Positions 1,513 to 63,825 of a DNA stretch of 64,000 bases are shown piece after piece; the first letter of the stretch is position 1, and each line of letters opens with the position of its first letter. The DNA comes from Hysterangium stoloniferum. Lineage: Eukaryota; Basidiomycota; Agaricomycetes; Hysterangiales; Hysterangiaceae. Position numbers and translations under genes: made by a program. Under the pieces are notes generated by a model. The model saw only the letters and a program-made list of their open reading frames with translations, ran no database searches and was not told the DNA's origin. The stretch is from contig WHVD01000099.1 in NCBI GenBank assembly GCA_015178975.1, forward strand, positions 186,001 to 250,000. The letters are read 5' to 3'.

Positions 1513-1769
1513 CCTGGTTAAATGGCAATGAATTTGTAATGCCCCCACTCTTCTCAGAGCTTACAAGACTATTTATTGAATCTAATGATCATTTCACTTC
1601 CTCACGATGACAACACTGTTTATTTACTTCTAACTCTACCCTTCACTATTCATCCCCCTCAGCCTTTCACCTCAATAACCGAGCAGAGTGTGAAATTAAT
1701 ATAAAATATGTAAAATCCACTAAAGAAAATTTCATCCCCCTAACTCTTCCCTCCACATCAACCTTTCAA

Positions 1770-4742
1770 ATGGTACACTATGTCACAGGAGCAACAACCC
1801 AACCCAAATTCCCCAACTTCAAAAGAATACCGCGACCCCAGCCTATTAATACTTCTACCACGTCATCTCATACTGAAAAGGTCAAGCACTGCACGGGTAA
1901 TTCAGGGATTTCATCGTCAATATACCCTGCTGTACAGGACACCATGGTGGGAACATCCACCAATTTGGGGAACGGAACTGCTTTCACTCCATATACTCCT
2001 CCCCCCAGACCCCAATTTCCTAACTTTAAATGAATACCTCGACCCCAAACAATGGTTCCTCCTTCCCCACCACCTCGAACAGAAATTGTCGAGTGTGTGG
2101 AGGAGACCTCATCATCCACATACCCTACACGGACGGACTCTGTTTCAAAAGCTACACCCCTGCCCCCTGGTACTTGGGGGGCTCCCTTGGGAACATGGAG
2201 CAAAACCCCTCCACCTTCTCGTAGCATTTTCCCTTCCACTGAGGAGGAGATCAGGAAAAAATGGCAGTCCAAGGCTTTCTCTGCGCAGGTTCATGAGGAA
2301 TTAAAAATGCTCAAGAGGAAGAGGAGGGAGGAGTACTTAGAAGGACAGCGGAAGATGGGTGCTAGGGATAATGTCCCTTCAAGGTGGACACGACAGGAAT
2401 GGAGGAGAATGGAAGGGCACAACAATCCTTCAACCATCGCTCCCCCCTCGGGTCATAAGTGGAAGGATTTCACTGAGACGGATTGCAGCGACGGAGGCAT
2501 CCCATGTGTTTGGAGCATAGGACAGAAAAGTAGGAAAGGAAAAGATGGGGTCACATTCTACGATTGGGACAAAGTACAGAGGATCAAGCTACAAAGCATT
2601 CCATTGTGATGTGGGGAGAGAGTTGCACTACCTCCCCAACCTCCTTCCCAACATGGGCCTCAGGAATGGACCTACTGGATGGGGCCCATCGATTCTTCAT
2701 CCAATTTGGAGGATGACCAATCGTGCTACCCTGCCTATGTGTGAAGAGTGGTGGAAGTTCAGACCGTTCTATATACGAAGAAATAAGTAGAAAGGAAGAA
2801 TATTGACCTATTCGGTGCAATATAAGAGAAAGTGAGAGAAAGAGCACGAGATGACGAAGGAGTCAATGAGTGCGATGGTTCGAGTGGAGGCCTCGACTAT
2901 TACAGTTCAAGGCCAGAAGTATTCAGTAGTTCAGATAATGCTACCTATGTGGTAGCTGACACGTTACCCTGATCACCGCTCGTAGTAGACCTAGTTTGTG
3001 TCTTACGAGTGGTGGTTCTTGGGTTAAAGTGTGTCTGAGTTCTAATTGGTGCTGAGTGCACCCACAAGTATACACAATGCTTCGAACTAATGAAATATGC
3101 GATATTCGAAGAATGTGAAAGATAGTAAAATATGAATAGAATATGTAAAATATAAATGAAATAAAAGGAGTGTTTTACCACAATGAAACTGTGGTAAAAG
3201 CATACTCCTCACACTATGACAGCAAGTACCTCAGTGCTTATTGCCATGAAGGTCTTTTACTTCCTGACAACATTCACTTCTTCATGAGTGACCCTAATCA
3301 ACGATGAAAACTGCTGACTTCCATCAGAGTTTGGAGGGGTATCGCCCAGCTGACCCTGTGATGCCATCCAGCTCCACTCACCCCTCTCCACCACTGCCCA
3401 TCTCTTCCGTACCCTCACTGCAGCACTTTACACCCTTTTCAGAGCTGCCAGGAGGTCTTGAACCATCCACCAACCTGCCTTCCCTCCCCCCTATACCATT
3501 ACCCTCCCCTCCACAGGACATTCCCTCATGCCACCACCCACACCCACACCCAAGCCTCCTCCAGCACCGCAGCCAGTCACACCCCTCCACATGTCACCTG
3601 ACCCCCTTGTCACCACTTGCTCTACCCCGACGCCATTGCTCCCTGCAGTGCCAGACACCTCCCTTGTTCCCCCACCAGCGTGGAGTCCACCACCTGTCTC
3701 TCCCTGCTCACCTTGCATTTCTCTGGGGAGCCCCATTCAACAACTGAATATTACATTAATGGATGTTGATCACCCTACCTCAGAAGTCCCCACGATGTCT
3801 CCCTCAGCTATGGAAGAAGTTCTCGAGACACCTCCCTCAGCCAAAGAGGTCTCCAAGGCACCTCCCCCAGCAATGGAGGTCTTCGAGGGGCCTCCCCCTT
3901 TAAGTGAAAAGGTGAAAGGGAAGTGGAAAGCTGATGTTCAGGCTGATGAGCCCCTTGTCATTGACCCTCCTCAGCCGACCCCATTTGCAGCCCTCCGCCG
4001 CAGCTGCCCTCTCCCTCTCACTCTTGGGACACGGCTGACTTAGCTTGTTTCTTTCAAGCAGGTTGGATGTGTGTCCATTAACTACCCCTCCGACATCTTC
4101 ATGGTGGGATGCACATTAATGCGACTGGGACCAACCTTGCAGCACCTCCTTCTTAAAGGACACATTCAAGGGTATAGTGGGTCTCTCACTTTGTTGGACC
4201 ACATGAGTGCATTTTACTTATGTGTCAATGACCCTAAGGAACAGCTGCATTTAGTGGAGGATATCCAATGGGTCGAGCTTTCCATGTTTTGATCCCTGCT
4301 GGTGAACTCCTCTTGTGTTCTCCCTGAACATACACCAATTCATTTGGCTGTGGACCTAGTCGACTTGTTGGAGCAACTGTTGTCGGATCCCGACACCTCG
4401 GGAGGGTTTCCCCCTGGTGGAGATGTGAGCTGCACATCACTTCCCACTCCTACCCTGCCATCTTTACACCCTCGGCCTCCTCTCATTGCCCACATTACTG
4501 ATGCCTCTGCTGATTGTGTTCGCACCATCATTCGGCCACGCCAGAAGGCCTACAGTTGTTGGGTCTCATCAATCCAGAAGCTGGATGGGTTGACATCCAC
4601 CAGTGATGTTTCGAAGCGAGAAGACATTGCTCTTTCTTTTTGTGCCAAGCATCTAGCCTGGGGCAATGCTATCCTACACCTCGGAGGTTCATCGCAGGAC
4701 ACGTGGGGAGGAGTTCCAAGCGTCCTTCAACACCTTCTTTGA
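1770..4742 (+). pseudogene. ORF3 of left chromovirus remnant, broken
   Basis: This is a downstream reading frame of unknown function between pol and the 3' LTR, seen in three chromovirus copies here (this one, 41834-45891 and 59970-62310). Its first part is basic and Lys/Arg/Glu-rich with a W-x-D-F-x-E-x-D-C-S-D-like stretch. The middle is very rich in proline and serine. The last part holds conserved features such as a G-G-S-S-Q-x-x-W-G-G-V-P motif near the end. It has no aspartic protease, RT or integrase signature and no obvious membrane anchor. It is broken, with several breaks including a solo LTR insertion. Its role could be Gag-like or accessory; I do not recognise the family. Confidence 0.6.
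2740..3213 (+). repeat. Solo LTR, left arm only
   Basis: This 474-bp block begins TGTGAAGAGT and ends CTCCTCACA. It is flanked by CTATG at 2735-2739 and 3214-3218. The right arm has the empty site as CTACG (reverse complement at 61350-61354). The ends resemble the other chromoviral LTRs, and no internal region remains. Element orientation is uncertain. Confidence 0.85.
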
Positions 4743-4767
4743 CATAGCTCTTTGACCTGGGGGGCAC

Positions 4768-5403
4768 TGTGAGAGGTACGGTGAAATATACCCAGGAAAT
4801 ATAGTCTGGATGAGCTCATACTATATTTCCTTTATTATTTCTACCTTCTCTCTATTTTATTATACACTTATAATTAGTTCGACGACCTATGTATGCGGTA
4901 CATCGACTCTTGTGGGTGCATACATGCCAGACTTATGTATTCTAGCACCCGTAGTTAAAACTCAGACACTATTTACCCCACAACCACGACTTACCCAAGA
5001 CACCAATCCGTGTCCTGTAAGTTGTGATTGGGGTATCATCTCGACTGTCACAGACGGGCTTTAACTATCTACACAATCAGAGTTTTGAACTGCACCAGTC
5101 AAAACTCCATCTTTATCTCAATCCACGCAGACTACATCCACACTACTCTATTGCTTGACTCTCTCGTTACTCTATTTTACACTTGAGCAGTCATCTAGAA
5201 TCGTACTATACAGTCGATTCTCTTTATTCATTTTAGCTCTCTACCCTACTTTAGATAGCTACCTCATTCAACTGTATTGAACTAGGTAGTCAATAGGTGT
5301 TCGGTCTGTATTAGACTTAGACAGTCAATACATCTTAGTGTCGTACCTAAACGGTCGATATTCTTCATATATAGAATGGTTAGAACTTCCACCACTCTTC
5401 ACA
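4768..5403 (+). repeat. 3' LTR of left chromovirus remnant
   Basis: This 636-bp repeat begins TGTGAGAGGT directly after a purine-rich tract and ends CCACTCTTCACA. It matches the right-arm LTR at 58352-59803 once the solo LTR nested in that copy is set aside. It carries the empty site for that solo LTR as TAGAC at 5318-5322. Confidence 0.85.
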
Positions 5404-5796
5404 CAGGGTGTTGTCGAGATCGATCTGTTAGGTCTAGCACTCAAGAGGGATCTGCTATTTATGTGGGATCAGTGCATCCAGACACCGAGCAGGCCTTACC
5501 TACCATGGATGCACAGGATCCACGCACACAGGTGTCTACAGAAATTTTGACAGCAACGATGGCCGCAGTCCACGATAGCATGCTTAGAGGGGTGCAGGTT
5601 GCATGGGATTTGCACATGGGGCACCTGGAGACTATGCATTGTCAGTTCCTTGAAGCAAGGCCACATATCAACAGGCCACAAACTGTTCCCTGTGGTTAAG
5701 ACTCGTAACAGGGAACAGAGCCAGGCCTGGCATGAGCAACACCAAATGCCACTAGTGGAATGGCTGTCTCCACACCCAGACAGTTCCCATAGGCCC
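5404..5796 (+). other. Unclassified block shared by both arms
   Basis: This 393-bp stretch follows the chromoviral 3' LTR and also occurs at 57936-58351 in the right arm. A short open frame at about 5505-5699 begins M-D-A-Q-D-P and could be the start of a Gag-like protein of some other element, but I see no motif that proves it. It is the DNA into which the chromovirus inserted, or a fused element remnant. Confidence 0.4.
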
Positions 5797-6992
5797 TGTT
5801 ATGACCAGAAAATCCCACCGGACTCTGGGCACTAACTCGTACACACCCACACCCTAGACACACCAATTGTCAGTTTATAGGAATTCCCACCCAGACTCCA
5901 TACGTCAGACTTGTTTACATTTGACCTCATTACATCACATATCAATGTCACAACCATCACATGTCACAATATTGTCACAAACATTCAAAGGTAACCTTCA
6001 ACAACCCTTCAACTTATCGAATTCAACTCAACACAACCGAACATTATTCGACACCATCAAATCTCTTTCAACATGTCTCATTTCGACGTCATATATGATT
6101 TCATTATTAGTTCATAACATAGTCATAACGATATGAAGAAAAGCATAAAAGGGCTACAAAAGGAGTGAGGGAAGTCAGTCGAAATATCTCTATATTAGTG
6201 ATATTAGTAATCTATCTTGTCATAACTTCTTCGACAAATACTTCCATGAGTACTCACAACTGGTAATAGCCTCTTACTTCATCGACAGGGCGAATATATA
6301 CTTCGTCGAACGAGGCTTCCGAATTCGATTAGTAGAATATTATTCGACTTTATTGAAGAATATTCAATTCGTGACAATCAGTCACTGGGCTTCCCCCGGA
6401 CTCCATCTCGTCTATGTCCATCTTCATCCCACACATCAGTCACTGGACCCCTCTCAGAATCCTGTCATCACTCTAACTGCACCCCACTCCTGTTTTAGTC
6501 AAATGCCTGTCACAATTTGGACTCCACTCCCGCTCTGTTTCCCATTATGGGTTATGATTTGTCACGATTTGGACTCTGCTCCATTCTGTCCCATTCCTAA
6601 CACCAAACTTGGTCTTTACTATTCCCATTTTATGTTTTGTTAGTTTCATTTCATCATTACTGGATTTGGTATGTCATTTACTCCATGGTCTATTTAAACT
6701 GGCAGATGTTGTACATACAATCCAGTCAGAAAATCAGCTTAGATTCCCCCCAGTAATCTAATACATTTTCTGCTCTAAACCCTTACTTGAATCACACCAC
6801 TCATGCTAGTCAGAGCCCATGGGCTCCGGCACATCTATCACTCTCAACTATCTCGACTCTCAACCCACAACCTCCAACCTATGACCCCTCGACCCACAAA
6901 CCCTGCCTGGACTCCCCAGGATTCCCGTCTGCCCATCTGAAATTGGACAACACGATCTAGCGAGGGTGCAGCCTATAAGCTGAAGCCAAACT
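5797..6992 (+). repeat. Decayed family S LTR, truncated
   Basis: This block begins TGTTATGACC and resembles the family S LTRs at 8000-8817, 9233-10037 and 58438-59248 along most of its length. Shared features include 'ggagcccatgggctcc' and 'cagcctataagctgaagcc'. It lacks the last part present in the other copies, so it is a truncated LTR. It contains a different solo LTR at 5946-6376. The right arm carries the same truncated copy at 57177-57935. Confidence 0.75.
5946..6376 (+). repeat. Solo LTR nested in family S LTR
   Basis: This 431-bp block begins TGTCACAACC and ends TTCGTGACA. It is flanked by ATCAA (5941-5945) and ATCAG (6377-6381), a near-perfect 5-bp target duplication. The right arm has an uninterrupted site at 57781-57794. 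A TATA-like 'cataaaag' lies inside at about 6145, as expected of an LTR promoter on the + strand. Confidence 0.75.
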
Positions 6993-7339
6993 TGACTCTG
7001 GGCCCCCCCAGGACATGCCTTGCCATCTCCCTAAATCAGCAGTGAAGGGCATAGAGGGATGCAGGCTGGACTTGAAAGCAGTCACCACATGTGAGGATGT
7101 AGTTGAGGCACAAGGGAGCGGTGATTGCACTGAGGGGATGGAGGTTGAGGTTTGAGGAGAGGGAGGTTACTGGAGCGATGATCTAGATGAGCTGGAGCAG
7201 GGGGTGTTAGAATTACACAGTTGACCAGTCTGCGATACTTTGCACGCTGCCTTACAGTGTGGGAGGGCAGGTGTAATGCGGTGGTGGACTTTGAATCAGG
7301 CAGGTAACTGCCCTAGTCTTAGATGGAGGCCATGGGAAA
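6993..7339 (+). other. Non-coding block shared by both arms
   Basis: I see no gene here. The right arm carries the same sequence at about 56830-57176. A more distant relative of about 7120-7320 lies in the central spacer at about 30930-31090 (both contain 'gatgatctagatgag' or a close variant), so this is itself an old dispersed repeat. Confidence 0.5.
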
Positions 7340-7667
7340 GTGCCATGCAGGGTGTCGCACTGCTGTGCAAGTGCCGCGACACCTCAAAATGCCCTCAAAT
7401 ACACATTTAACTAGCATAAAATAAATATAGTTTTGTATATATTCTTCATAATATATCATGTCTACTGGGGCTCTGCTAATTTACTTTAAGACTGGGTTTT
7501 AATGTTTAAAATTGTGAATTAGCCACTTTTTTAAGAGTATATATCATTTAAAATGGTATTTTGAGTATTAACATTCAAAATATAGCTATGTTTTAGTTTG
7601 AAGCCAAAATGTATATTTGCGGCAATTGTCCACTTTTCGCGGCACCCCTCACAGCAGTGCATGGCAC
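7340..7667. mobile_element. MITE, 328 bp, left-arm copy
   Basis: This is an AT-rich non-coding element with imperfect inverted ends. It begins GTGCCATGCAGGGTGTCGC and ends CACAGCAGTGCATGGCAC. The right-arm copy is at 56502-56829. A related but CpG-rich version of the same end occurs at 35186 onward. I see no coding capacity. The superfamily is not clear from the ends alone. Confidence 0.65.
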
Positions 7668-7999
7668 CTACACAGTGAGATTCAATGTGGGAGTTTGAAA
7701 AACTTTCGAGCCTCGACAGTCAATATTTGCAAGTCCTGACCCAAAGCACACTATATCATTTGGTGACACTCTGATCAGTTTTTCTACTATCCACTGTTGA
7801 GCATTGTTTCTTTCCAGTTATTCTACACTTCTGTAAGAGTTTGGGAATCTCTTACTTTGGAAAGGTACTATCCTTCCTCTAAGATAGTTGTCTCTTTTTC
7901 TTAAGTTTTATAGCTTGCTCTTTGATTAAGTTAGGAGTACCTGGCTGATAGATCAAGACAGTGAGAAGTTACCTCTTTCACTTATACAGTGTGAGTGGC
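7668..7999 (+). other. Upstream flank of transposon T
   Basis: This non-coding DNA is shared with 56170-56501 in the right arm. It lies upstream of the T gene and may contain T's 5' terminus, which I could not define. No promoter is certain. It ends at the target site GTGGC of the solo LTR that follows. Confidence 0.4.
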
Positions 8000-8817
8000 T
8001 GTTACGACTGGACAATCCCGCCGGACTCCGGGCACTAACCCATACACCCCCACGCGCTACAAGCACCAATTGTCTGTTTATAGGATTTCCCGCCCGGACT
8101 CCATTATGTCAAGACTCATTATGTTCGACCTCATTACAACACATATCAGTCACCGGACTTCCCCTGGACTCCATCTCTGTCTATGTCCATCTTCGTCCAC
8201 GCATCAGTCACCGGACCCCGCTTAGAATCCCATCACTGCTCTAATTGAGCCCCATTCCCGTTTTAGTCAAATGACCTGTCACGATTAGGACTCCGCTCCC
8301 GCTCCATTTCCTGTTATAGGTTATGCTTTGTCACGATTTGGACTCCACTCTGTTCCGTCCCGTTCCTAACACCAAACTTGGTGTTTACTATTCCCGTTTT
8401 ATGTTTTGTTAGTTTCGTTTTCATCATTACCGGATTAGTATGTCATTCACTCCATGGTCTATATAAAATGGCAGATGTTGTACATACAATCCAGTCAGAA
8501 AATTAGCTTAGATTCCCCCCAGTAATCTAATAACATTTTCCTCTCTAAAACCTTACTTGATTCACACCACTCGCACTAGTCGGAGCCCATGGGCTCCGGC
8601 ACATCTATCTCTCTCAACCATCTTGACTCACAACCCACGACCTCCGAATTATGACCTATGACCCACAAACCCCGCCCGGACTCCCCGGGATCCCCGTCTG
8701 CCTGTTTGAAATTGGACAACACGATCTAGCGAGGGTGCAGCCTATAAGGTGAAGCCAAGTCCTACCAGATATCCCGCGGGTTTCTCCGGAAACCCAGCCT
8801 GTGTGTGTATCCTAACA
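8000..8817 (+). repeat. Family S solo LTR, left arm only
   Basis: This 818-bp LTR begins TGTTACGACT and ends ATCCTAACA. It has perfect 5-bp target copies GTGGC at 7995-7999 and 8818-8822. The uninterrupted site lies in the right arm at 56170-56174 (GCCAC on +). No internal region remains, so this is a product of LTR-LTR recombination. Confidence 0.9.
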
Positions 8818-9232
8818 GTGGCTTCCACTCTAGACTCTAAGGTGTAGGTTTAGTGTTTATCTGTTTTGGTCACTCCCACAGCAACAGATTATATTATACC
8901 AGTCAGGGAAATATATATACAATATACTGCTTACTGGACTTCCTGAAATTTACAGTATTCAGTTATTCCTCTTACATATTTCTCTAATGGTATATCATCA
9001 TAACATTTTTTTGAACTGATTCTCATGTATTATTTATATAGTTTCTGTTCCATCATTTTCACAAACTATTTGGATTTCATTCTAGGCCTGATATTGTCAA
9101 TACCAAAGACAATAAACCAAAAGTATCTATTCCTGGAAAAGGTATCCCAAGTTTCCCTTAGTGATGTCTTTATTTTACACATTATATACATACTGTATGT
9201 AGTTGTTGGACTGTACCATCATGGACCTTATC

Positions 9233-10037
9233 TGTTAGGATACACACACAGGGCGGGTCTCGTGAGAAACCCGTGGGATATCCGGTAGGACTTGGCTTCA
9301 GCTTATAGGCTGCACCCTCGCTAGATCATGTTGTCCAATTTCAAACAGGTGGACAGGAATCCCAGGGAGTCCGGGCGTGGTTCGTGGGTCGTAGGTCGTA
9401 GGTCATGAGTTGTGAGTCGAGATAGTCGAGAGGGATAGATACGCCAGAGCCCATGGGCTCCGACTAGTGCGAGCGGTGTGATTAGAGTAGGGAAAATATA
9501 TTAGATTACTGGGGGGAATCTAAGCTAATTTTCTGACTGGACTGTATGTACAACATCTGCCAGTTTAAATAGACCATGGAGTGAATGACATACTAATCTG
9601 GTAATAATGAAAATGAAACTAACAAAACATAAATGGGAATAGTAAACACCAAATTTGGTGTTAGGAACAGGACAGAACAGAGCGGAGTCCGAATCATTCG
9701 TGACAAAGCATAACCCATAACGGGAAATGGAGTGGGAGTGGAGTCCTAATCGTGACAGGTCATTTGACTAAAATGGGAATGGGGCTCGAATAGAGTGGTG
9801 ACGGGATTCAGAGTGGGATCCAGTGACTGATGCGTGGGACGAAGATGGACATAGACAGAGACGGAGTCTGGGGGAAGTCTGGTTACTGATATGTGTCGTA
9901 ATGAGGTCGAATGTAACAAGTCATGTCGTGATGGAGTCTGGGCAGGAAATCCTATAAACAGACAATTGGTGCTTGTAGTGCATGGGGGCGTACGGGTTAG
10001 TGCCCGGAGTCCGGCGGGATTTGTCCGGGTCGTAACA
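9233..10037 (-). repeat. Family S solo LTR within T, left arm only
   Basis: This 805-bp LTR is in reverse orientation. On the + strand it begins TGTTAGGATACAC and ends GTCGTAACA. Perfect target copies TTATC lie at 9228-9232 and 10038-10042. The right arm has the intact T sequence at 55760-55764 (GATAA on +). Confidence 0.9.
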
Positions 10038-10166
10038 TTATCCACCTAGGATGTTACCTGGCTATGGCCTGGATGGTATGTACAAGCTATACTCAATTAT
10101 TTAATACAGAATAATGAATTCATTATTGACGGGAAATCCTTTTGGTTATTTTTTAAATCCAAATTA

Positions 10167-11768
10167 CAGTAGGCAACAAAACCCTTACAATGTTTTGCAC
10201 CTTTTGAAAGACATGGCTATTCCTCCAGAAATAAATTCTGTAAATTGCTGAAATTATTATGTAATATACCTCAACATCATACCTTCCAGAAATGCACAGC
10301 CACAAGGCACCATGTCCTTATTTGGTAAGTCCACATCACACACAAACCAATACCTCATTGTAAGGGTTTTGTTGCACACATTTTTAAAGTTCAAAATGGA
10401 TCCTAGTCACATACCTTTGTTTATAAAGTTCAACAAAGTCATGTGACCACTCTTCCTCAATGTATATAAGATGAAAGCAACCAGTTGGAATCCCACAATC
10501 ACCCTACTCACAATGAAAAAGCTCTCCTCCAGCCAAATCCAACATGTTCTTACTCTACTTGACTCTGGCATTTCTGGAGCTCAAATATATTACCAAACTC
10601 ATCTCAGCAGTGCCACCATCAGTCATATTCACTCTGAGCATCACCCTGACCTCCCCAAATGCTCTGGTGGCCATCCTACAAAGCTTACCACAGCCAATAT
10701 TGCCTATGCTAGAAGAATAATTTGCATGGGGAAGGTTGATAATGCCACACAGGCAACCAAGAAACTTATAGACATCATCAACACTCCTATTACTTCACAA
10801 ACAGTGCATTGCCACCTCAAAACCATAGGCATGAGGGCTGTGGTAAAGAGAAAAAGGCCACTTCTCAAACCTCATTATTGGAAATCTCGATTGGAGTTTG
10901 CAGAAAGGCATTTGGAATGGACCCTGGAGGACTGGAAGAGGGTCATATGGTCTGATGAGACTAATATTAATAGGCTGGGATCAGATGGAAGGAAATATGT
11001 GTGGAAAAATGTGGGTGAGGGATTAAATGATAGGTTAGTAGAGGGAACAGTCAAGTTTGGAGGAGGAAACCTGATGATGTGGGGATGCATGGGCTGGGAT
11101 GGGGTTGGGTTTGCAACCAAAATTGATGGGAGGATGGATGCTGAGCTTTATGTGGAGATCCTGGATGATGAACTCCAGCAAACCCTTAAATATTACAACA
11201 AAACAGTGGCTGACATTGTGTTTCAACAAGACAATGACCCCAAACACACCAGCAAAAAGGGCCAGAAATGGTTCACTGACCATGATGTTACAGTCCTCAA
11301 GTGGCCTGCACAATCTCCTGACATGAATTCTATTGAACATCTGTGGAATCATGTCAAAAAGAAGCTGGGGGAGTATGAACAGTCTGCAAATAGTGTTCAT
11401 GAACTGTGGGAGAGGGTGCAGAAGGTGTGGGAAGAGATTCCAAAGGAGGAGTGTCAGAAGCTTATTGAGAGTATGCCTAGAAGACTTGCAGCAGTGATTA
11501 GAGCAAAGGGGGGCTATACTAAATACTAATTTCTTGTAATAATAGCCTCAAAATAGTGTGCAACAAAACCCTTACAATGAGCTATTGGTTTGTGTGTGAT
11601 GTGGACTTACCAAATAAGGACATGGTGCCTTGTGGCTGTGCATTTCTGGAAGGTATGATGTTGAAGTATATTACATAATATTTTCAGCAATTTACAGAAT
11701 TTATTTCTGGAGGAATAGCCATGTCTTTCAAAAAGTGCACAACATTGTAAGGGTTTTGTTGCCTACTG
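10167..11768 (+). mobile_element. Tc1-like DNA transposon, apparently complete
   Basis: This 1602-bp element is flanked by TA dinucleotides (10165-10166 and 11769-11770). Its ends are long inverted repeats of about 215 bp, starting CAGTAGGCAACAAAACCC. Within each terminal repeat the motif gcaacaaaacccttacaatg occurs twice in opposite orientation, so each end is a small inverted unit. The transposase frame is uninterrupted. The element sits in T, and the right arm keeps the single TA at 55636-55637. An open gene with well-matched long ends suggests a recent insertion. Confidence 0.95.
10513..11529 (+). CDS. Tc1-type DD34E transposase
   Basis: This is a cut-and-paste transposase. The N-terminus (KLSSSQIQHVLTLLDSGIS) begins a helix-turn-helix DNA-binding region, followed by a second one with G-H-P-T-K-L. 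The catalytic triad is visible: Asp in VIWSDETNINRLGSDG, Asp in FQQDNDPKHT, and Glu in SPDMNSIEHLWN, with 34 residues between the last two, which defines the DD34E Tc1 class. The frame stays open back to an in-frame Met at 10471. I prefer the Met at 10513 because it directly precedes the conserved N-terminal helix. It ends in A-K-G-G-Y-T-K-Y. At about 338 residues it has the usual Tc1 length, with no stop or frameshift, so it may be functional. It needs no introns and lies wholly between the inverted repeats. Confidence 0.93.
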   Translation: MKKLSSSQIQHVLTLLDSGISGAQIYYQTHLSSATISHIHSEHHPDLPKCSGGHPTKLTTANIAYARRIICMGKVDNATQATKKLIDIINTPITSQTVHCHLKTIGMRAVVKRKRPLLKPHYWKSRLEFAERHLEWTLEDWKRVIWSDETNINRLGSDGRKYVWKNVGEGLNDRLVEGTVKFGGGNLMMWGCMGWDGVGFATKIDGRMDAELYVEILDDELQQTLKYYNKTVADIVFQQDNDPKHTSKKGQKWFTDHDVTVLKWPAQSPDMNSIEHLWNHVKKKLGEYEQSANSVHELWERVQKVWEEIPKEECQKLIESMPRRLAAVIRAKGGYTKY

Positions 11769-15259: not shown

Positions 15260-15310
15260 TGTCAGGGGAGGGGTTGAGCAAGGGGTGCTGAACCTTACAC
15301 CACTACTATC

Positions 15311-49766: not shown

Positions 49767-49841
49767 TAAATCCTTCTCCTTAAGTGACTTGGGCTTATGA
49801 GCCCAATGAGTGGGGTCGTGAATTATCCCGATTGTCTCCCC

Positions 49842-51578
49842 TCATCGGATAATCTTAGGGGTTAACGACGGGTTGGCCAAAGGTACTGATGCGCTATTCC
49901 TTGAAATTGCCGTGATTGGGGTGGCTAGTATGGAGCCGTCCTCATTTTGTAATACAATTCCTACAATCCACTCCTCGCCTATCAGGTCCTCAACGAAAAT
50001 AGGCACTAATCTGGCTGACTCCAGCTCAATGGTGCAGTCTTCCAAGACTCACGTGACTCTTTCAGTACGCATGCCTTTATCGGGGAGAGAGGTGAGTTTG
50101 GATCGCTCCTTCGGAGGCTTTCCGAAAGGGGCCTTGTTGATGGTGAAGGTCAAATGTTGAGGTTCCTTAGCAGAACTGGCTGGAATAAAACCCTGTCGTC
50201 CCGGGAGAATAAGCCTAGATCCCAATGGCTGATCTCTTAGGGTACCAATTTCATAGTTAACATGGAAATCTTCTCCTAAGAGAATTGGTACCATCATTCC
50301 TCTGACAACATAAGTTTCCACCACGAATCTCAGTAAAATGCCACTGTCGTCCTCCAGGTAAATAGGAATATTAACGTATCCTATGACCTTGGCATTACCT
50401 GTGAGCTGGATTAGACGTAACTTGAGTCCCTGTTTCAACTTATACTGGCCTTGCAGCCCTTTGTAGAATTACTCCAATATAAGGGAAAGATCCACTCCCA
50501 TGTCCATTCTAACTTTAACATGTTCGGGTGAATCGGGATTTCCTACATGACCGAAAACATGGAGCGCAGTAACTCCTATGCTAGAGTAGCCGCTGGGGGG
50601 ATCCCATTTTTGATAAAGGATTGTAACATTCTCCTTCATCAATCGACTGGGACGAGGGTATTGGATTCTAGGCCTCCTACTTTCCTTGCGCAGGGACAGG
50701 CTTACATTCCTGCATTCGCTTCGACAAGGAATATGTTTTGAGGAGGAATCCAAGGCTGGATCGCTATCACCATCCTCCGAATCTGAGTCATCATACGGTA
50801 GTAAGTCGGGGGGGTTTCCAGGATCAAACGGGAATGTGTCAATGTCAGCTCCAGGTAAACAGAGCGAGTCCGAGTTGATTTGCTCATCATAACCCTGAAT
50901 CTGACAGTGGTTCTCAGTCAGGCCTTCAAGGTCCTGCTGGTGTGCGCTCAACCGATCTCCCTTTTCAAAAAAATCTGCAGTGAGTATGGATACGTAGACC
51001 TCAGACGAAAGAGTTTCACCGGTCGTTCGATTTTCCTCTCTTACTGAGTCATCTCTGACTTGGGGTGTATAAATGGGAACAATAGTCAATTCATCATCAG
51101 AGCTATTTACTTGTCCTTGTATAGATAGTCCATGAACCGCCTCATATAACCTTTGCTCCTCAGTTTCCTCCGACATATCCTGTGCAGAGCATTTATTGAT
51201 TGAGACATAATGAGACATCTTGCCCGCGTGGGGGCAGTCTATTTTAAAATGCTCCGGGCTTCCGCATATCCAACATTCCTTGGTGGGTTTGACCGAACTC
51301 TTCTTGTTACTCCTCTCGAAGAACATTTTTCCGTGACGCTTTCCCTGCTTTGGATCAGCGACATCTGGAACGGTCCTTCTCGTCGAGCCTCTCTCATTAG
51401 TCTCACTAACGAGAATATGGTTAGGTGAAGAGAAGTCGTCGGTGACTCTAAAATCCAATTCTTGACCCTCTGATAACATTACGTGCAGTTTCTGGAACCT
51501 GTAATGTTCCCGGTGTGTTTGGACCCAGGCATTAATCAGAGCTTCTTGCAGGTTATTAGCATAAGTCTGTAAACTCAT
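49842..51578 (-). pseudogene. Gag zinc knuckle and protease region
   Basis: A CCHC zinc knuckle (C-W-I-C-G-S-P-E-H-F-K-I-D-C, about 51230-51290) binds RNA in this family. Acidic linker sequence follows, then an aspartic-protease-like region (VRMDMGVDLSLI near 50490 and MMVPILLGEDF near 50285). Some sequence after this links to RT. Broken. Confidence 0.65.
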
Positions 51579-51593
51579 GATATCATCAATGGG

Positions 51594-53660
51594 TTATCCT
51601 TGAAGAAGGTAGAGCCATTCCGTAGGCAGCGTGAGAATGAGTCTGCGTGTCTCATCCCCTCTGTCCTGGTGGAACCCGTACAGGAAATGATAAAGTTTAA
51701 CTCTCCGCTGGATATAGTGGACGGGTGTCTCACGATCGTGACCAGCCTGTCGAAATTTCATGGCTTCCCATTCTAAGGCCAAGGATTCATGCCAACGAGT
51801 TCCAAGCAATCCTTCCATGATGCCCCAAAGAAACGACCCATGAGATTGACTGAATTCAGTATGATGCTCACGGTCTAGGGTGCTCCACCAGACCTTAGCG
51901 TGCCCCGTGAGTCGTCTTGGCAGACCAACTCCTAAGATCGCACTCATAGAGTCTGATATCTCCGCGAGACTCATGATGTCCATGATATAGTCCAGGGTCT
52001 TGGATTGAGCTCCGTCGTATTCAGGAAGATCAGACCATTTGATCTTAAGGTCGTTGGTGTTAAGAGTGACCTTCTTGTCCTTAGGTAAGTCATCAATAAG
52101 CGCGCTAGCTCGAGACCGCATCGGAGTTCGAAAAGGGGTATTAGGCACTCCATTGTGGCGCTCCCCATGTCCTGAGTTCCCTCCCCAGTCTGAAGTATTC
52201 GAACTCCCAGATAAATCGCTAGGGGGTCCTCCTGATGGCAAGAAAGGGTTTGAAGCGATCGGTAGAGAATGGCGGGGACCGTCTGAATTAAGCGATCCTC
52301 GACCAGCAACTGGGCCAGCTATACCCTCAGTGAATGCTGTGGAGAAGGACGGTCGACCCTTGTTGGTGACTGATCGGTTTCTGAGAGTGGTCACTTCATT
52401 CCTGAAGTTAGGGCTATTGGAGACTCTCTCAAGTGCGACACGAGAGCGGTGATCTCCCTGGGAAGACGTTAGGCCAGGTTCCATCACGATTTGTCTCTCG
52501 ATCTCTGTCGCATTCAGAAGTCGATGCGGCTGGGGTTGATGGAAGGGAGCGCAGACCTCAATCCTCTTCTCCTGAAGGCATTCTATCACCTGCATCCTCA
52601 TGTCCAGTGGAAAATCCTCCAATATTACGGGACGGTTGAGAGAATGTAGAAAATGAGTATCAGGGGACCTGTTTAGGTTGTGAATGAATGAATTGGTCGT
52701 GGAGATAGGCGAATCAGGGACCTGGATCGAGTTGTTATAGGGGAGGAGTACCTCTAAAACCATCTTATCAAGTCTTCTTTGGTTTCGCTTCAGCCGACCC
52801 CTTAAAGTGAGGTATGCCAGCGATAGGTTTGGCGTGACTCCATTGAGAGACTCCTCCAACATACGGATGTACATGTACTGGTAGTCAACCTTAGGCACAA
52901 CATGATCTCCGCCAGGCAGGACGTGCAGGATCTGCAACACATCATCATGTGTACAAAGTGCTTCAAGGAATAGAGAAAACACCTCCCGCTTGAGAATTCT
53001 TCTTCCTCCTTCCATAGTGGTTGTCACCTCGTTCGACCATTCGGGAATCGATTGGGTCAAATCCTCAAGGTTCCCTGGTCACGTGAATAAATCCCACGCC
53101 GATAAAATCGCTTGATAACACCCTAACCAGACTGCTACAGTCTCCGGTAAAATAGGGTAATCCGTACTGTACTCCTCCACGAAGGGGGTAACCTGATCCT
53201 GGGGGATTCGATCGGTGTAGTACATATCCCATTTGAAGTCGATGGGCTGAGCGTAAACCATATGACCTCTGAGGAACTGCTTAAGGATAACCTGTCTCGG
53301 AGGGAATCTGAGAACGGGCGTGGGTGCTCGATTAGGCTCAACGTTAGCTTCAGGGGTGTCCAACTGCCCGAGTGGTGAGCGTTCCTCAGGTGGATCGGGG
53401 GGAATGTTCGTTGACGATCCAGCTACTACTCCGGGGGAATCCTCCGGAGGAGCTGATCCTTGAGGAAGCTGGGGAATGTTCATAGACGATCCAGCTACTA
53501 CTCCGGGGGAATCCTCTGGAGGAGCTGATCCTTGAAAAGTCGACGAAAACTTCCTCAGGGTGATGTTACAGGGTGGTTCTAGGTTAGCAGATTTTTGACG
53601 AGGCATGGAGCCACTCGGTGTTGATGAAGGCCTAGGTGTTTGATTCTTGCCCGTAGTCAT
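51594..53660 (-). pseudogene. Chromovirus gag region
   Basis: Gag is expected to build the virus-like particle. The start (TTGKNQTPRPSSTPSGSM) is Pro/Ser-rich with a direct duplication of an SAPPEDSPGVVAGSS unit. A helical segment follows (VAVWLGCYQAILSAWDLF). The second part contains LPRRLTGHAKVWWSTLDREH, typical of the Ty3 capsid-type Gag. The zinc knuckle lies further on, at about 51240-51290. The N-terminus resembles the gag at the left window edge. Broken. Confidence 0.75.
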
Positions 53661-53736
53661 TCGCGTGTTCAGGTCTTAGTAGTCAAATAATAAATTTTTC
53701 CTAGTAGGAAAAGAACGGTCCGGCCCGGATCACCAC

Positions 53737-54377
53737 TGTGAAGAGTCGTTAGATTCTGACCGCTCAATATATGAAGAATAGTGTTTATTCAACTACTATT
53801 AGAAGGTATTGACTGTTCAGTACAATACCGTCGATTGCTAGACTGACTGTACTAGCAAGGAGACATGCTACGCGTCACAAGAGCAACTGTACAGTTGCTC
53901 TTGACAGCTAAAATGAGAGAACAAAAGAGTTGACCTTTACGGTGCAACTCGTAGCTAGATGTAAAATAGATAATCAATGAAAGGCTGAATATCTAAAGTA
54001 AGAGATAATAGTGCGAGTCGACTATAGTGTCGACGAGCGCAAAGACCTTAGAGTGGAACTCGACCTTCGCAGTTCGAGTCCAAAGTCTGTTAGTAGGCTA
54101 GAGAATGCTACCTTTATAGGTAGCTGAGATGTTACCCTTGACACCTCTCGCTATTCGACGTCTGGGTCGTTTACGAGGTGGTGTCTGCTGGGTAAAAAGA
54201 TGTCTGACATTTAGCGCTGAGAGCACCCATAGATATACACAAGACTTCGAACTAAGAAATACGGGTATGCTCGAAAGATATAGAGAGTTAGGGAAAAAGA
54301 GTAAAAACTAAATAATAAAGTACTATAATATATGTATTATTCCACAGTCCAATCATGATATATGCATACCCTTCACA
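53737..54377 (-). repeat. 5' LTR of the 13.2-kb chromovirus
   Basis: 641 bp, the partner of 41168-41808. On the - strand it is followed by GTGGTGATCCGGGCC, a primer-binding-like sequence, and then by gag. Confidence 0.95.
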
Positions 54378-54382: not shown

Positions 54383-55960
54383 ATTATTTGTAGCTCCATC
54401 CAAGAAGTTTGAAGTACAAGGATTGTAGTTGGTCCAACCTCACTATAATGTAAGAAATCAGGATGATGAGATCCAAACTCAGCCAACTGTTCCAATCCTG
54501 ATTCTGCAGTCCCTCCAATAATCTTATTTCTCTTGTGAACAATTTTCTTCTCATACTGAATACGATCAACATTTAATAGAACTGGGGATATCTCTGTGAC
54601 AGATGTACCTGGACCAGAAAATCCAGGAATGCCAACAGCTAATTGTAGTGAACCCATTTTTGGATGTTCCTGAAATATTTTGTGGAGCTGAGATCGTTCA
54701 TTGGGAAGAAGATGGAGTTTATGAGTGGGTCGTTGGTGAAGATGTGTCCCACCATTGTGATACATAATCCCATTTTTATAAGTGTGGACAGTACATTGCA
54801 TGTCACATGATGTAAATTCCATCCACAGTCACAACTACGTGTTAATTGCTTTTGAATACCAGCATCTCTGGTCTGAGGCTAAATGACAATATCACAGTCA
54901 GGATTTTTGCAATGTATGATACCCAAACATTTACACTTTGTATGCTTTCCACCATCTAAAGTTAAAGAATTTATATCATGGTGTTTATCCCCACCTAGTA
55001 CTATGGTTGCCCAGTGAACAGATAATTGTTGAGAACTTTATATTCAGAATGTGTAAACTGATATGACCATTCACCATTGGGCCATCCATTCCAGTCTTTA
55101 ACTTTTCTATTTTCCATTGGTCCAATAGATGATTGTAGATCCTTGAGATGGTTCCCAGATATGAAGTTAGGAGATGGTGATAATTTCTCTAATTTTGGGA
55201 AAGGAGCTGAGGGAGCTGTTGGGATAACACCGTAAAACCTTATCATCACATGTTAGGCACATACGCGGTCATCGTTCCCCATGTGGTATTTAAACTGTGT
55301 AGTTACAACATTTACACCTCAGTCCATTATACACTAATACGAGACTGAGGTGAGTGTTGCTCTGCGTAATATTTCTTTTACCCTTATATTAATTGTATAT
55401 ATCAGATACATATAGGTATATACAATATAGTCTGTTATACACTAATACGAGACTGAGATACATATAGAGTTACCTTTTTACAGGAGCAGGAATGGTGATA
55501 TTGGGCTTTGGTGGTAATTTTGATAAAGGAATTGAGGGAGTAGTAATGGTAATATTGGGGATTGGTGGCTTGGAAGCAATATCATCAGGAACAGTGTGAG
55601 ATTGGGCTTGGGAATTGAATATAGATCGGTTGATATAATTTGGATTTAAAAAATAACCAAAAGGATTTCCTGTCAATAATGAATTCATTCTTCTGTATTA
55701 AATAATTGAGTATGGCTTGTACATACCGTCCAAGTTATAACCAGGTAACATCCTAGGTGGATAAGGTCCCTGATGGTACAGTCCAACAACTACATACAGT
55801 ATGTATATAATTCGTAAAATAAAGACATCACTAAGGGAAATGTGGCATACCTTTTCCAGGAATAGATATTTTTGGTTTATTGTCTTTGGTATTGACAATA
55901 TCAGGCCTAGAATGAAATCCAAATAGTTTGTGAAAATGATGGAACAGAAACTATATAAAT
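54383..55960 (-). pseudogene. Transposon T gene, right copy, 5' part
   Basis: N-terminal part of T on the - strand, cut from the rest by the chromovirus. A small exon (RPDIVNTKDNKPKVSIPGK-like, near 55850-55905) and another (GPYPPRMLPGY, near 55740-55775) precede NSLLTGNPFGYFLNPNY (from about 55688). The Pro/Ile/Thr-rich segment, interrupted by a solo LTR (55217-55482), and the zinc cluster (about 54790-54990) follow. Then comes sequence up to the DDE core (54383-54700). The left copy's stop at 12447 is not present here (near 54695 the codon is Arg). Confidence 0.7.
55217..55482. repeat. Solo LTR within T, right arm only
   Basis: A 266-bp block begins TGTTGGGATAACACC and ends CCTTTTTACA. Perfect target copies GGAGC lie at 55212-55216 and 55483-55487. 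The empty site is GCTCC at 11919-11923 in the left arm. The TGTTGGG start is typical of Ty1/copia LTRs. It contains an internal repeated word, 'atacactaatacgagactga'. Confidence 0.88.
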
Positions 55961-58351: not shown

Positions 58352-59803
58352 TGTGAAGAGTGGTAGAAGTTCTAACCATTCTATATATGAAGAATATCGA
58401 CCGTTTAGGTACGACACTAAGATGTATTGACTGTCTATGTTAGGATATGCACACAGGGCAGGTCTCGTGAGAAACCCGTGGGATATCTGGTAGGACATGG
58501 CTTGAGCTTATAGGCTGCACCCTTGCTAGATCGTGTTGTCCAATTTTGAATGGGTGGACAGGAATCCCGGGGAGTCTGGGCGGGGGTCGTGGGTTGTAGG
58601 TCGGAGGTTGTGAGTTGTGAGTCGAGATAGTCGAGAGAGATAGATGTGCCGGAGCCCGTGGGCTCTGACTAGTGTGAGCAGTCTGATAAGAGTAGGGTTT
58701 TAGAGTGGAAAATATATTAGATTACTGGGGGGAATCTAAGCTAATTTTCTGACTGGATTGTATGTACAACATCTGCCAGTTTATATAGACTGTGGAGTGA
58801 ATAACATACCAAATCCAGTAATGATGAAATGAAACTAACAAAACATAAAATGGGAAATGTAAACACCAAGTTTGGTGTTAGGAATGGGACGGAATGGAGT
58901 GGAGTCCAAATTGTGACAAAGCATAACCCATAATGGGAAATGGAGCGGGAGCGGAGTCCTAAATCGTGACAGCTCATTTGACTAAAACGGGAATGGGGCT
59001 CAATTAGAGCGGTGATGGGATTCTAAGTGGGGACTGGTGACTGATGCGTGGGATGAAGATGGACATAGGCAGAGATGGAGTCCAGGGGAAGTCCAGTGAC
59101 TGACATGTGTCATAATGAGGTTGAACGTAGCGAGTCTTGATGTATGGAGTCTGGGCAGGAAATCCTATAAACAGACAATTGGTACTTGTAGCGTGTGGGG
59201 GCATACGGGTAGTGCCCAGAGTCCGGCGGGATTTGTCCGGTCGTAACAGTCTAAGTCTAATACAGACCAAACATGTATTGACTACCTAGTTCAATACGGT
59301 TGAATGAGGTAGCTATCTAAAGTAGAGTAGAGAGCTAAAATGAATAAAGAGAATTGACTGTATAGTACGATTATAGATGACTGCTCAAGTGTAAAATAGA
59401 GTAACAAGAGAGTCAAGTGATAGAGTAGTGTGGATGTAGTCTGCGCAGATTGAGATAAGGATGGAGTTTCGACTGGTGCAGTTCAAAATTCTGATTGTGT
59501 AGATAGTTAAAGCCTGTCTGTGACAGTCGAGATGATACCCCAATCACAACTTACAGGACATGGATTGGTGTCTTGGGTAAGTCGTGGTTGCAGGGTAAAA
59601 AGTGTCTGAGTTTTAACTACAGGTGCTAGAATACATAAGTCTGGCATGTATGCACCCACAAGTGTCGATGTACCGCATACATAGGTCGTCTAAATAATTA
59701 TAAGTGTATAATAAAATAGAGAGAAGGTAGAAATAATAAAGGAAATATAGTATGAGCTCATCCAGACTATATTTCCTGGGTATATTTCACCATACCTCTC
59801 ACA
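58352..59803 (-). repeat. 3' LTR of right chromovirus, split by a solo LTR
   Basis: The two pieces 58352-58437 and 59249-59803 correspond to the 636-bp LTR at 4768-5403. The ends on + are TGTGAAGAGTGG and CCTCTCACA. Confidence 0.85.
58438..59248 (-). repeat. Family S solo LTR, right arm only
   Basis: An 811-bp LTR. On + it begins TGTTAGGATATGC and ends GTCGTAACA. Perfect target copies GTCTA lie at 58433-58437 and 59249-59253. The left arm has the empty site TAGAC at 5318-5322. Confidence 0.9.
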
Positions 59804-59969: not shown

Positions 59970-62310
59970 GGCAGATGTTCCCTTCCCCCTATACCATTAC
60001 CCCTCCCCTCTGTGGGACATTCCCTCATGCCACCACCCACACCTGCACCCAAGCCTCCTCCAGCACCGCAGCCAACCACACCCCTCCACACGTCACCTGA
60101 CCCCCTTGTCGCCACTTGCTCTACCCTGATGCCATTGCTCCCTGCAGTGTCAGACACCTCCCTTGTTCCCCCACCAGCATGGAGTCCACCACCTGTCTCT
60201 CCCTGCTCACCTTGTGTTTCTCTGGGGAGCCCCATTCAACAACTGAATATTACATTAATGGATGTTGATCACCCTACCTCAGAAGTCCCCATGACGTCTT
60301 CCTCAGCTGTGGAAGAAGTTCTCGAGACGCCTCCCTCAGCCACAGAGGTCTCCAAGGCACCTCCCCCAGCAATGGAGGTCTTCGAGGAGCCTCCCCCTTT
60401 AAGCAAAAAGGTGAAAGGGAAGCGGAAAGCTGATGTTCAGGCCGACAAGCCCCTTGTCATTGACCCTCCCTCAGCCGACCCCATTTCCAGCCCTCCGCCA
60501 CAGCTGCCCTCTCCCTCTCACTCTCGGGACACGGCTGACTTAGCTCGTTTCTTTCAAGCAGGTTGGATGTGTGTGTCCATTAACTACCCCTCTGACATCT
60601 TCATGGTGGGATGCACGTTAATGCAACTGGGACCAACCTTGCGGCACCTCCTTCTTAAAGGACACATTCAAGGGTATAGCGGGTCTCTCACGTTGTTGGA
60701 CTGCATGAGTGTGTTTTACTTATGCGTCAATGACCCTAAGGAACAGCTGCATTTAGCAGAGGATATCGAATGGGTCGAGCTTTCCATGTTTTGATCACAC
60801 TGGTCAACTCCTCTTGTGTTCTCCCTGAACATACACCAATTCATTCGGCTGTGGACCTAGTTGACTCATTGGAGCAACTGTTGTCGGATCCCGACACCTT
60901 GGGAGGGTTTCCCCCTGGCGGAGATGTGAGCTGCACATCACTTCCCACTCCTACCCTGCCATCTTTACACCCTCGGCCTCCTCTCATTGCCCGCATTACT
61001 GATGCCTCTGCTGATCGTGTTCGCGCCATCATTTGACCACGCCAGAAGGCCTACAGTTGTTGGGTCTCATCAATCCAGAAGCTGGATGGGTTGTCGGTGG
61101 ATGGTTCAAGACCTCCTGGCAGCTCTGAAAAGGGTGTAAAGCGCTGCAGTGAGGGTACGGAAGAGATGGGCAGTGGTGGAGAGGGGTGAGTGGAGCTGGA
61201 TGGCATCACAGGGTCAGCTGGGTGATACCCCCTCCAAACTCTGATGGAAGTCGGCAGTTTTCATCGTTGATTAGGGTCACTCATGAAGAAGTGAATGTTG
61301 TCAGGAAGTAAAAAACCTTCGTGGCAATCAGCACTGAGGTACTTGCTGTCGTAGGCAGGGTAGTGCGATCGGTCATCCTCTGAATTGGATGAAGAATTGA
61401 TGGGCCCCATCCAGTAGGTCTGTTCCTGAGGCCCATGTTGGAAAGGAGGTCGGGGAGGTAGTGCAACTCCGTCCCCACGTCACAATGGAATGCTTTGTAG
61501 CTTGATCCTCCATACTTTGTCCCAATCGTAGAATGTGACCCTGTCTTTTCCTTTCCTGCTTTTCTGTCCTACGCTCTGAAGGCATGGCATGCCTCTGTCG
61601 CTGCAATCCATTTCAGTGAAATCCGTCCACTTATGACCTGAGGGGGGAGTGATGGTTGAAGGATTGTTGTGTCCTTCCATTCTCCTCCATTCCTGTTGTG
61701 TCCACCTTGAAGGGACATTATCCCTAGCACCCATCTTCTGCTGTCCTTCTAAGTACTCCTCCCTCCTCTTCCTCTTGAGTGTTTTTAATTCCTCCTGAAC
61801 CTGTGCAGAGAAAGCCTTGGACTGCCATTTTTTCCTGATCTCCTCCTTGGTGGAAGGGAAAATGCTACGAGAAGGTGGAGGGGTTTTGCTCCATGTTCCC
61901 GAGGGAGCCCCCCAAGTACCAGGGGGCAGGGGTGTAGCTTTTGAAACAGAGTCTGTCTGTGTAGGGTATGAGGACGACGAGGCCTCCTCCACGCGCTCAA
62001 CAATTTCTGTTTGAGGTGGTGGGGAAGGAGGAACCATTGTTTGGGGTCGAGGTATTCATTTAAAGTTAGGAAATCGGGGTCTGGGGGGAGGAGTATATGG
62101 AGTGAAAGCAGTTCCGTTCCCCGAATTGGTGGATGTTCCCGCCGTGGTGTCCTGTACAGCGGGGTATATTGACAATGACATCCCCCAATTACCCGTGCAG
62201 TGCTCAACCTTTTCAGTACGAGACGACATGGTAGAAGTATTAATAGGCTGGGGTCGCGGTATTCTTTTGAAGTTGGGGAATTTGAGTTTGGGTTGTTGCT
62301 CCTGCAACAT
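59970..62310 (-). pseudogene. ORF3 of right chromovirus, rearranged
   Basis: Third copy of the extra frame. The N-terminal part (about 61480-62310) reads on the - strand, with SRWTQQEWRRMEGHNN and FYDWDKVWRIKLQ. The proline-rich middle part (about 59975-61090) lies in the opposite orientation. The C-terminal end lies next to the LTR. It is similar to the left copy, with many C/T and G/A differences. Broken. Function unknown. Confidence 0.6.
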
Positions 62311-62539
62311 AGTGTACCATTTGAGAGGTTGATGTGGAGGGAAGAGATAGGGGGATGAAATTTTCTTTAGCAGATTTTACGTATTTTATATTAATTTCAC
62401 ACTCTGCTCGGTTATTGAGGTGAAAGGCTGAGGGGGATGAATAGTGAAGGGTAGAGTTAGAAGTAAATCAACAGTGTTGTCATCGTGAGGAAGTGAAATG
62501 ATCATTAGATTCGATAAATAGTCTTGTAAGCTCTGAGAA

Positions 62540-63825
62540 GAGTGGGGGCATTACGAATTCATTGCTGTTTAACCAGGTATCCTCTTCCGGTCCATATCCT
62601 TTCCATCGAACTTGGAAAAGGAGTCAATTTTGATGCTTCTTGTGTCCTACTATAGCTTCTACTTTGTACTCCTCGTCGTTACGATCGAGTTCCCGAGGAT
62701 TCTCGAGTAGCTCCCTTGATCTGAATTCCTTAGGGGAAAGATGGTACTTCTTAAGATGGTCTCAGTTGATCACTGGGTGTAGTTGATATTCTGAGGGAAT
62801 GCAGAGTTGAAAGACTTGAGGATTGATCTTCTCCAAGACCTCAAATGGCCCTATTCATCTTTGTATAAGTCTCCTTCTGGGTCCTTTGGCTTCAACAAGT
62901 TCTAGAGAATGGGGATTGATCAGAACATAATCTCCTTCCAAGATATCTTCCACCAATCTCCTTTTCTTATTGTAGCTACGAGCTTGTGTTTCTTGTGCTC
63001 GCACAATCAAATCCCACGCAGCCTGTCGATGGTTTTCCAACTCTAAGATCCATGGTCAGCTAAGGGGCTATCCGATAATTCCCTAGGAACCACAGGGTCG
63101 TCCCCTCCTAGGCAATGAGACATTCCTCTTGGTAAGTATCCCATCAGCAAAAAGGCCAGCACATAGCTTGTTGAACTCTGAACCATCGAATTGTAGGTAT
63201 GAGCCACTACTTGAGACCATTTAGACGATTCCTCTTTTGAAGAAGCACAGTACACTCTGAGCATTTTCTCAATGATAGCATTGGCGTTCTCTGTTTGACC
63301 GTCAGTTTGAGGATGATGGGACAAGGATACTGCAAGGGCACTTCCGTATACCTTGCAGACCTCTCTCCAAAACCTACAGGTCCACCTCTTGTCTTGATCA
63401 CAGATTATCCTTGAAGGTAGGCCAAAAGGAGTGGCCACTTTATTCACAAAGATTCGTGTGAATCCTTCTGCAGATAGATCTGAAGTTGTGGGCTCACAAA
63501 TTAAAAAATGCGTGAGTTTATCCACAGTGACAAAGATGGCTGAATAAGCACCCTCTGCAGAAGGAGGCAATCCGGTAATCAGGTCCATCAAGACAACCTC
63601 AAACAGCCTTAAGGGTACATCCACGGGTCGAAGAGCTCCTTGTCGGGTGGAATGATTGACCTTAGTTTTCTGGCATATGTCACAGCTGCGAGCATACGCC
63701 ATGCAGTCATGCAACATCCTTGGCCAGAAGAAACGGTCCTTCATAAGCTGGAAAAGTCTGTGACCACCTGCATGAGCTCCTTCAAAGGGGTTGTCATGTA
63801 TCAATTTGAGTATAGTTGACGTCAT
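62540..63825 (-). pseudogene. Integrase region of right chromovirus
   Basis: It includes HDNPFEGAHAGGHRLF, CDICQKTK, VLMDLITGLP, IICDQDKRWTCRFW and HHPQTDGQTENAN. After it come the C-terminal part (YNKKRRLVEDILEGDYVLIN) and a chromodomain remnant. It is clearly related to the integrase at 46251-48038 but belongs to a separate copy. More pol sequence continues from 63826 to the window edge. Broken. Confidence 0.85.

Follow-up and report, generated by a model that had tools for sequence, protein, structure and literature searches.

How do two long arms of inverted, closely similar DNA come to face each other on a fungal contig, and in what order did they receive the elements that now tell them apart? 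We addressed this question in a stretch of 64,000 nucleotides from Hysterangium stoloniferum (contig WHVD01000099.1, here C554:186001-250000; hereafter the window), from an assembly of 111 Mb in 554 contigs. The rest of C554 was also examined, and negative coordinates denote contig sequence to the left of the window (for instance, -21109 is contig position 164,891). The window holds an inverted segmental duplication that includes two copies of a Crinkler-type NTPase gene. We consider it very probable that the duplication was made from the right arm, that insertions followed, and that at some point after the duplication sequence was converted from arm to arm.

Two inverted arms around a short spacer

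Self-alignment, the dot-plot check proposed with the original prediction, revealed collinear inverted blocks of 91–99% identity across the window, converging from both sides on ca. 29 kb; the outer blocks are 94–98% identical. In the assembled contig they form two collinear inverted arms and a spacer, that is, a palindromic segmental duplication. The original prediction had placed a giant inverted duplication at 1513..62577. The duplication is real, but its extent was understated, because both arms exceed the window: the left one runs from -21109 to 26916 and the right one from 31533 to 63554. The left-arm part -21109..-20127 lies beyond a long terminal repeat (LTR) element, A, and matches 62574-63554. 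The arms, the spacer and the elements that predate the duplication are as follows.

1513..26916, plus -21109..-20127, plus strand: left arm (copy), interrupted by insertions; self-alignment and contig comparison
31533..63554, minus strand: right arm (source), interrupted by insertions; self-alignment and contig comparison
26917..31532: spacer, 4.6 kb; a dispersed repeat (26917-28071) abuts the left arm, tandem repeats occupy 30078-30601, and 30615-31520 is common to contigs C42 and C201
58352..64000, onward to 72004 in the right arm and cut at -21112 in the left arm, minus strand: LTR element B, common to both arms, predates the duplication
11770..15173, plus strand: shared dispersed element of ca. 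3.4 kb, predates the duplication; in the right arm at 38752-41167 and 54378-55637

Insertions in one arm, empty sites in the other

Ten later insertions had been predicted, each facing an unoccupied site in the other arm, and all ten proved real when checked base by base, with start positions that had been given correctly to within one base. Each is listed with its target site duplication (TSD).

-20126..1512 (window part 1..1512; LTR 833-1512): LTR element A, left arm; TSD CCTGG
2740..3213: solo LTR, left arm; TSD CTATG; empty site near 61352
5946..6376: solo LTR, left arm; TSD ATCAA/ATCAG, one mismatch; empty site near 57785
8000..8817: solo LTR, left arm; TSD GTGGC; empty site near 56170
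9233..10037: solo LTR, left arm, inverted relative to 8000-8817; TSD TTATC; empty site near 55760
10167..11768, plus strand: Tc1-type transposon (DDE_3, HTH_Tnp_Tc3_2), left arm; TSD TA; empty site near 55637
18566..26882, minus strand: KDZ transposon (PF18758), left arm; 131-bp terminal inverted repeats; 8-bp TSD GTATCAAA; empty site 31545
41168..54377, minus strand: chromovirus-type LTR element (reverse transcriptase, integrase, chromodomain), right arm; LTRs 41168-41808 and 53737-54377; TSD CTAGC; empty site 12761-12765
55218..55482: solo LTR, right arm; TSD GGAGC; empty site near 11919
58438..59248: solo LTR, right arm; TSD GTCTA; empty site near 5318

At every site the opposite arm is unoccupied and aligns without a gap, holding the target once with no extra bases, and the arms differ there by point changes only. 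The TSDs, which had been called proven, are exact in nine cases, the mismatched ATCAA/ATCAG being the tenth. Likewise, the element first assigned to 1-1512 is indeed an insertion flanked by CCTGG, but its true start, -20126, lies outside the window. None of the ten empty sites, that of the Tc1-type transposon included, showed an excision footprint in the base-by-base check. An inverted duplication followed by insertions into one arm thus fits 10 of 10 sites, and excision is not indicated. The left arm received seven insertions and the right arm three (binomial p 0.34); of the eight LTR insertions, six have been reduced to solo LTRs. The element at 18566-26882 combines a KDZ transposase (PF18758 match, E 3.6e-65), terminal inverted repeats and an 8-bp TSD; KDZ elements make TSDs of this length. 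The left arm resumes behind it for 34 bp (26883-26916).

An assembly artefact, in which two dikaryon haplotypes or a fold-back read were joined head to head, could be suspected here, because two haplotypes would look alike in showing arms a few per cent apart and insertions present in one and absent from the other. In addition, C554 contains another inverted repeat, contig C88 carries near-identical inverted stretches from its first base, and both left-arm ends fall at repeat edges, with 133 bp of the outer repeat recurring 6 kb away at 99% identity. Against this, alleles should match outward from the join, whereas homology ends at -21112 and 63554, and only on one side does element B extend further, to 72004. 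The Rpb1 domain is found in three strong loci plus a 22-position scrap on a fourth contig, and all 15 STE3 matches lie on one contig (C553), both as in a single haplotype; these markers disfavour the joining of two nuclei, which the original prediction had named as the outcome that would overturn it. The repeat at the inner left end also differs from its best other copies: these match its first 600 bp at 92% and part of that stretch at 94%, and identities of up to 98% are confined to the 557 bp behind it (40 of 3903 candidates scored). The outer repeat at -21112 was compared within C554. We regard an artefact as improbable.

Source, copy and arm ends

We read the right arm as the source and the left arm as its copy, because spacer sequence (30615-31520) is joined to right-arm sequence at two unlinked loci, C42:36741-38784 and C201:662371-663544, and because element B is whole only in the right arm, where it reaches 72004 with TSD CCCTG on both sides. 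The comparison thus reveals one arm as derived from the other. About 100 bp that C42 and C201 keep are missing at the inner end of the right arm; the last 14 of these ancestral bases survive at the inner end of the left arm, which is bounded by the edge of a repeat.

C42 and C201 also carry the gene with its flank, as would be expected if both arms belonged to a dispersed segmental family and had inserted close together, instead of one being a local copy of the other. The adjoining 3.4-kb element, though, has no listed match on C42 or C201 (40 of 130 and 40 of 116 candidates scored), whereas this element, element B and an older solo LTR follow one another alike in both arms; such a coincidence of landing sites seems very unlikely. 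A giant transposon with long terminal inverted repeats would recur with the same termini and target duplication; the genome-wide searches covered the inner, and not the outer, arm parts, and among the candidates scored these inner parts recur as pieces only. At the outer end, the left arm is abutted by an LTR element (LTR ca. -21416..-21112; relatives at -166023 and -160506, and a 133-bp piece at -27558), to the left of which we found no continuation of the arm within C554. A search for a left-arm continuation behind the repeat at 26917 found none either.

The claim that both arms carry the same elements in the same order holds overall, but is broken by the two changes listed here.

59978..61093: inversion of 1.1 kb, right arm only, within LTR element B; self-alignment
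34959..38751: right-arm segment of 3.8 kb between two shared blocks, where the left arm has instead 113 unlike bp (15174-15286)

The left-arm order at the inversion matches two other copies on C554 (88895-92937 and -31448..-27558). A 128-bp deletion, opposite 31957-32084, is private to the left arm; the right arm and C42 keep the 128 bp. Two further features in this part of the window are a stretch of 666 bp at 35510-36175, which forms an inverted repeat of its own (92% identity), and the spacer array at 30078-30601, which is satellite-like, with units of 72 bp and 36 bp and relatives in many contigs.

A probable conversion tract within the Crinkler-type NTPase gene

Each arm contains a copy of the gene, and within it lies the longest stretch over which the arms do not differ.

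15300..18350, plus strand: Crinkler-type NTPase gene copy, left arm; open pieces 16110-17081 and 17189-18247; lacks 128 bp near its 3' end
31766..34946, minus strand: Crinkler-type NTPase gene copy, right arm; open pieces 32112-33059 and 33167-34138
15447..18031, plus strand: tract of 2,585 bp without arm differences, putative gene conversion tract within the NTPase gene; sharp ends at 15446 and 18032

The outer limits of the left-arm copy were set where other copies cease to match. The gene is multicopy: among 95 candidates, the 40 scored gave at least 49 matching stretches across the genome; over most of its length the left-arm copy is 98% identical to that on C42 and 94% to that on C201. 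An open piece matches basidiomycete proteins, the named matches being from Hysterangium and Amanita, and the NTPase has a conserved GxSGSGKT stretch, which we take to be the P-loop. We label the gene Crinkler-type by predicted homology to a protein of Amanita rubescens, which shares the NTPase part and carries the Crinkler N-terminal domain PF20147. This domain is absent from both open pieces tested, which stop short of the N-terminus, and from Hysterangium P0006.

The next-longest identical run between the arms measures 502 bp (13,802 aligned columns, 404 mismatches), and the chance of a difference-free run of 2,585 bp is 2.4e-17, even at the low inner rate of 55/3743. Sequence adjoining the tract shows 20 differences in 694 bp between arms (ca. 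3%). With the C42 copy as outgroup, the spacer-side flank has 4 left-private, 12 right-private and 10 C42-only changes, whereas 200 bp sampled inside the tract have no arm differences and 6 C42-only changes (arm versus C42-only, 16/10 in the flank against 0/6 in the tract; Fisher p 0.018). Five sites beside an alignment gap, which the raw tally of the script had as left-private, were dropped from this count; the outgroup letters cover 200 bp of the tract, and identity values alone cover the remainder. A difference-free tract thus lies beside diverged sequence and contains outgroup differences, and the comparison indicates that 15447-18031 was made identical by arm-to-arm gene conversion.

Purifying selection, or a low mutation rate in the gene, would also spare a tract that belongs to a gene family with open reading frames, and few CpG changes are seen (ca. 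150 CpGs; 4 of 306 CpG positions changed by transition). We give this explanation hardly any credence: the C42 copy has those 6 differences in the 200 bp sampled and differs by ca. 2% over most of the gene, and that of C201 by 6%, the tract extends past the open frames, and the ends of the same gene are ca. 3% different between arms. Homogenisation by short-read polishing or collapsed reads is scarcely more credible, because the tract ends are sharp and the adjoining sequence, 97–99% identical, escaped it.

Gene conversion between the arms may also have reached further. The inner arms (12125-18565) are five times less diverged than the outer ones at non-CpG sites (33/5934 against 180/6524), and non-CpG transversions are likewise fewer (12/5934 against 42/6524), which suggests older conversion around the tract, in a comparison confounded with sequence type. 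An attempt to show that conversion is younger than the chromovirus insertion did not succeed: the LTR pair of that element and the inner arms differ strongly at CpG sites (15/66 against 20/378, p 2.5e-5), but non-CpG sites give no difference (5/575 against 33/5934, p 0.38), and either order may hold.

LTR clocks and CpG decay

The LTRs of element B, common to both arms, are 94.97% identical to each other; the arms over the same LTR are 95.91% identical, and the LTR pairs of element A and of the chromovirus 96.0% and 96.7%. Total divergence thus falls from 5.0% in shared element B to 4.1% between the arms there, and to 4.0% and 3.3% in the two arm-private elements. The LTR pairs would thus bracket the duplication in the expected order by total identity, although with few sites and not in every site class; the predicted ordering of events as before or after the duplication is borne out to the same degree. 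At non-CpG sites B has diverged by 2.53% (15/592), the arms at this LTR by 2.68% (16/596), element A by 2.50% and the chromovirus by 0.87%; at CpG sites the corresponding values are 36%, 22.5% (9/40), 25% (10/40) and 23%. Pooled, the two arm-private pairs are less diverged than the outer arms both at non-CpG sites (21/1215 against 180/6524 differences, p 0.039) and at CpG sites (25/106 against 141/418, p 0.047).

Arm differences are enriched at CpG, with 141 of 418 CpG sites affected in the outer arms against 180 of 6524 others. The decay is near-equal between arms (86 left and 77 right in total), and would fit the expectation from CpG methylation of repeats.

A proposed history

In the history that we propose, a segment of ca. 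14–18 kb (the right arm stripped of its later inserts, the 3.8-kb segment being counted or not), which held the Crinkler-type NTPase gene and a nest of older transposons, would have been copied once, inverted, a few kb away. The inverted copy may have arisen when replication switched template, or when a broken end was repaired by fold-back. Ten elements would then have inserted, seven of them in the left arm and the other three in the right, and CpG sites decayed about equally in both. Some time after the duplication the arms would have paired, within the chromosome or between sister chromatids, and a stretch of no less than 2,585 bp within the NTPase gene would have been copied from arm to arm.

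Several observations weigh against this history. Continuity through 26,916-31,533 rests on the assembly, so that the arms are only presumed to lie on one molecule. At non-CpG sites alone, the LTR pair of B (15/592) is not more diverged than the arms there (16/596), and the older bracket is therefore weak; at CpG sites, element A (10/40) is not below the arms over the B LTR (9/40). The contrast between inner and outer arms may come in part from sequence type, the outer arms being largely CpG-decayed LTR-element sequence. Finally, both left-arm ends coincide with edges of dispersed repeats (inner, 26917; outer, the LTR element at -21112); these repeats may hide the true junctions, and with the original junctions lost the forming mechanism is unreadable.

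Other inverted repeats in the genome

C554 contains a second inverted repeat at -65562..-36238 (C554:120438-149762), with a spacer of 2.6 kb and an identity that climbs inward from 97.1 through 98.7 and 99.1 to 99.97% (1 mismatch in 3,887 bp). A search with 3,087 bp of its inner block retrieved, besides both arms, only pieces among the matches listed (40 of 3478 candidates scored). On C88, positions 1-1500 and 80500-82000 are inverted copies 79 kb apart, with no mismatches and one indel over 1.36 kb; they begin at the first contig base, and equally scoring relatives of the NTPase gene occur there, some in each orientation. The 3.4-kb element forms inverted pairs, with scores that are almost equal and coordinates that are symmetric, at C420:2521-5848/24110-27435 and C30:229384-232417/237356-240431. 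Sampling of the midpoints of the pairs on C420, C88 and C30 revealed no long palindromes, and these pairs therefore have spacers or arose by chance. A further candidate, IR3 (105541-124351, 98.6%), was rejected, since its encoded sequence identifies it as two inverted copies of one element, presumably Copia-type.

All 15 STE3 matches are on C553 and none on C554, so the duplication was not found in a mating region, as judged by separation of contigs and by STE3, the homeodomain locus not having been searched. C553:189684-199876 carries a cluster of ca. four STE3 pheromone receptor genes, likely the mating locus. Among 8 scanned of the 27 frames of at least 300 amino acids on C554 outside the window, the sole match outside retroelement families is a piece of a polyprenyl synthetase gene (PF00348; C554:43742-44944). 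It is conceivable, but rather doubtful, that palindromes are recurrent in this genome outside any mating locus, and that conversion homogenises their inner parts, keeping Crinkler-type copies alike in transposon islands. The inward climb of identity in the second repeat on C554 parallels that in the window, and the inverted copies of this gene family on C88 are near-identical where sampled.

Relation to known palindromes and significance

The duplication belongs to a known kind, palindromes with arm-to-arm conversion, and is here found in a fungus and off the contig of the pheromone receptors. The closest likeness is to the W-chromosome palindromes W.P1/W.P2 of the willow Salix purpurea (PMC7023750). 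As far as the available part of that report describes them, they also have inverted arms of ca. 20 kb separated by a few kb of spacer, one-arm LTR elements that carry their own TSDs and serve as clocks, and a 3-kb region without arm differences but with interspecific ones, read as gene conversion; our outgroup test is of the kind applied there. The same source gives the willow four arms, over 99% alike on average, in a sex-determining region, in contrast to the two arms of this fungus, with outer blocks at 94–98% and no pheromone-receptor match on the contig.

The Y and X palindromes of humans and apes, in the portions of PMC3723533 and PMC8981503 at hand, share the large inverted arms and multi-kilobase conversion tracts, but their arms are over 99% identical (Y: 99.9%), whereas here conversion clearly reached only part of the arms. 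The palindrome on accessory chromosome 14 of Zymoseptoria tritici (PMC3681731) is likewise large, fungal and bounded by transposon remnants; the accessible text of its report mentions no arm dating, empty sites or conversion tract. In Caenorhabditis, according to the excerpted account in PMC1803023, paralogous genes in inverted arms are kept identical and conversion is invoked, but the arms measure ca. 2 kb in one example, the spacers are short and the pairs are kept over species splits. A literature search on conversion in fungal palindromes found none with dated one-arm insertions, which is no proof of absence.

Each insertion has its empty target on the other arm, and target duplications, solo-LTR formation and CpG decay can therefore be measured without a second strain. 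The inverted copy is itself dated between the insertions common to both arms and those of one arm alone. Because the arms exchange sequence, as in the 2,585-bp tract, they are not independent witnesses everywhere; conversion can wipe out the arm clock in places, and arm identity by itself is an unsafe basis for dating such duplications. The locus thus offers a fungal case, on a contig without pheromone receptors, for asking how far palindrome conversion extends.

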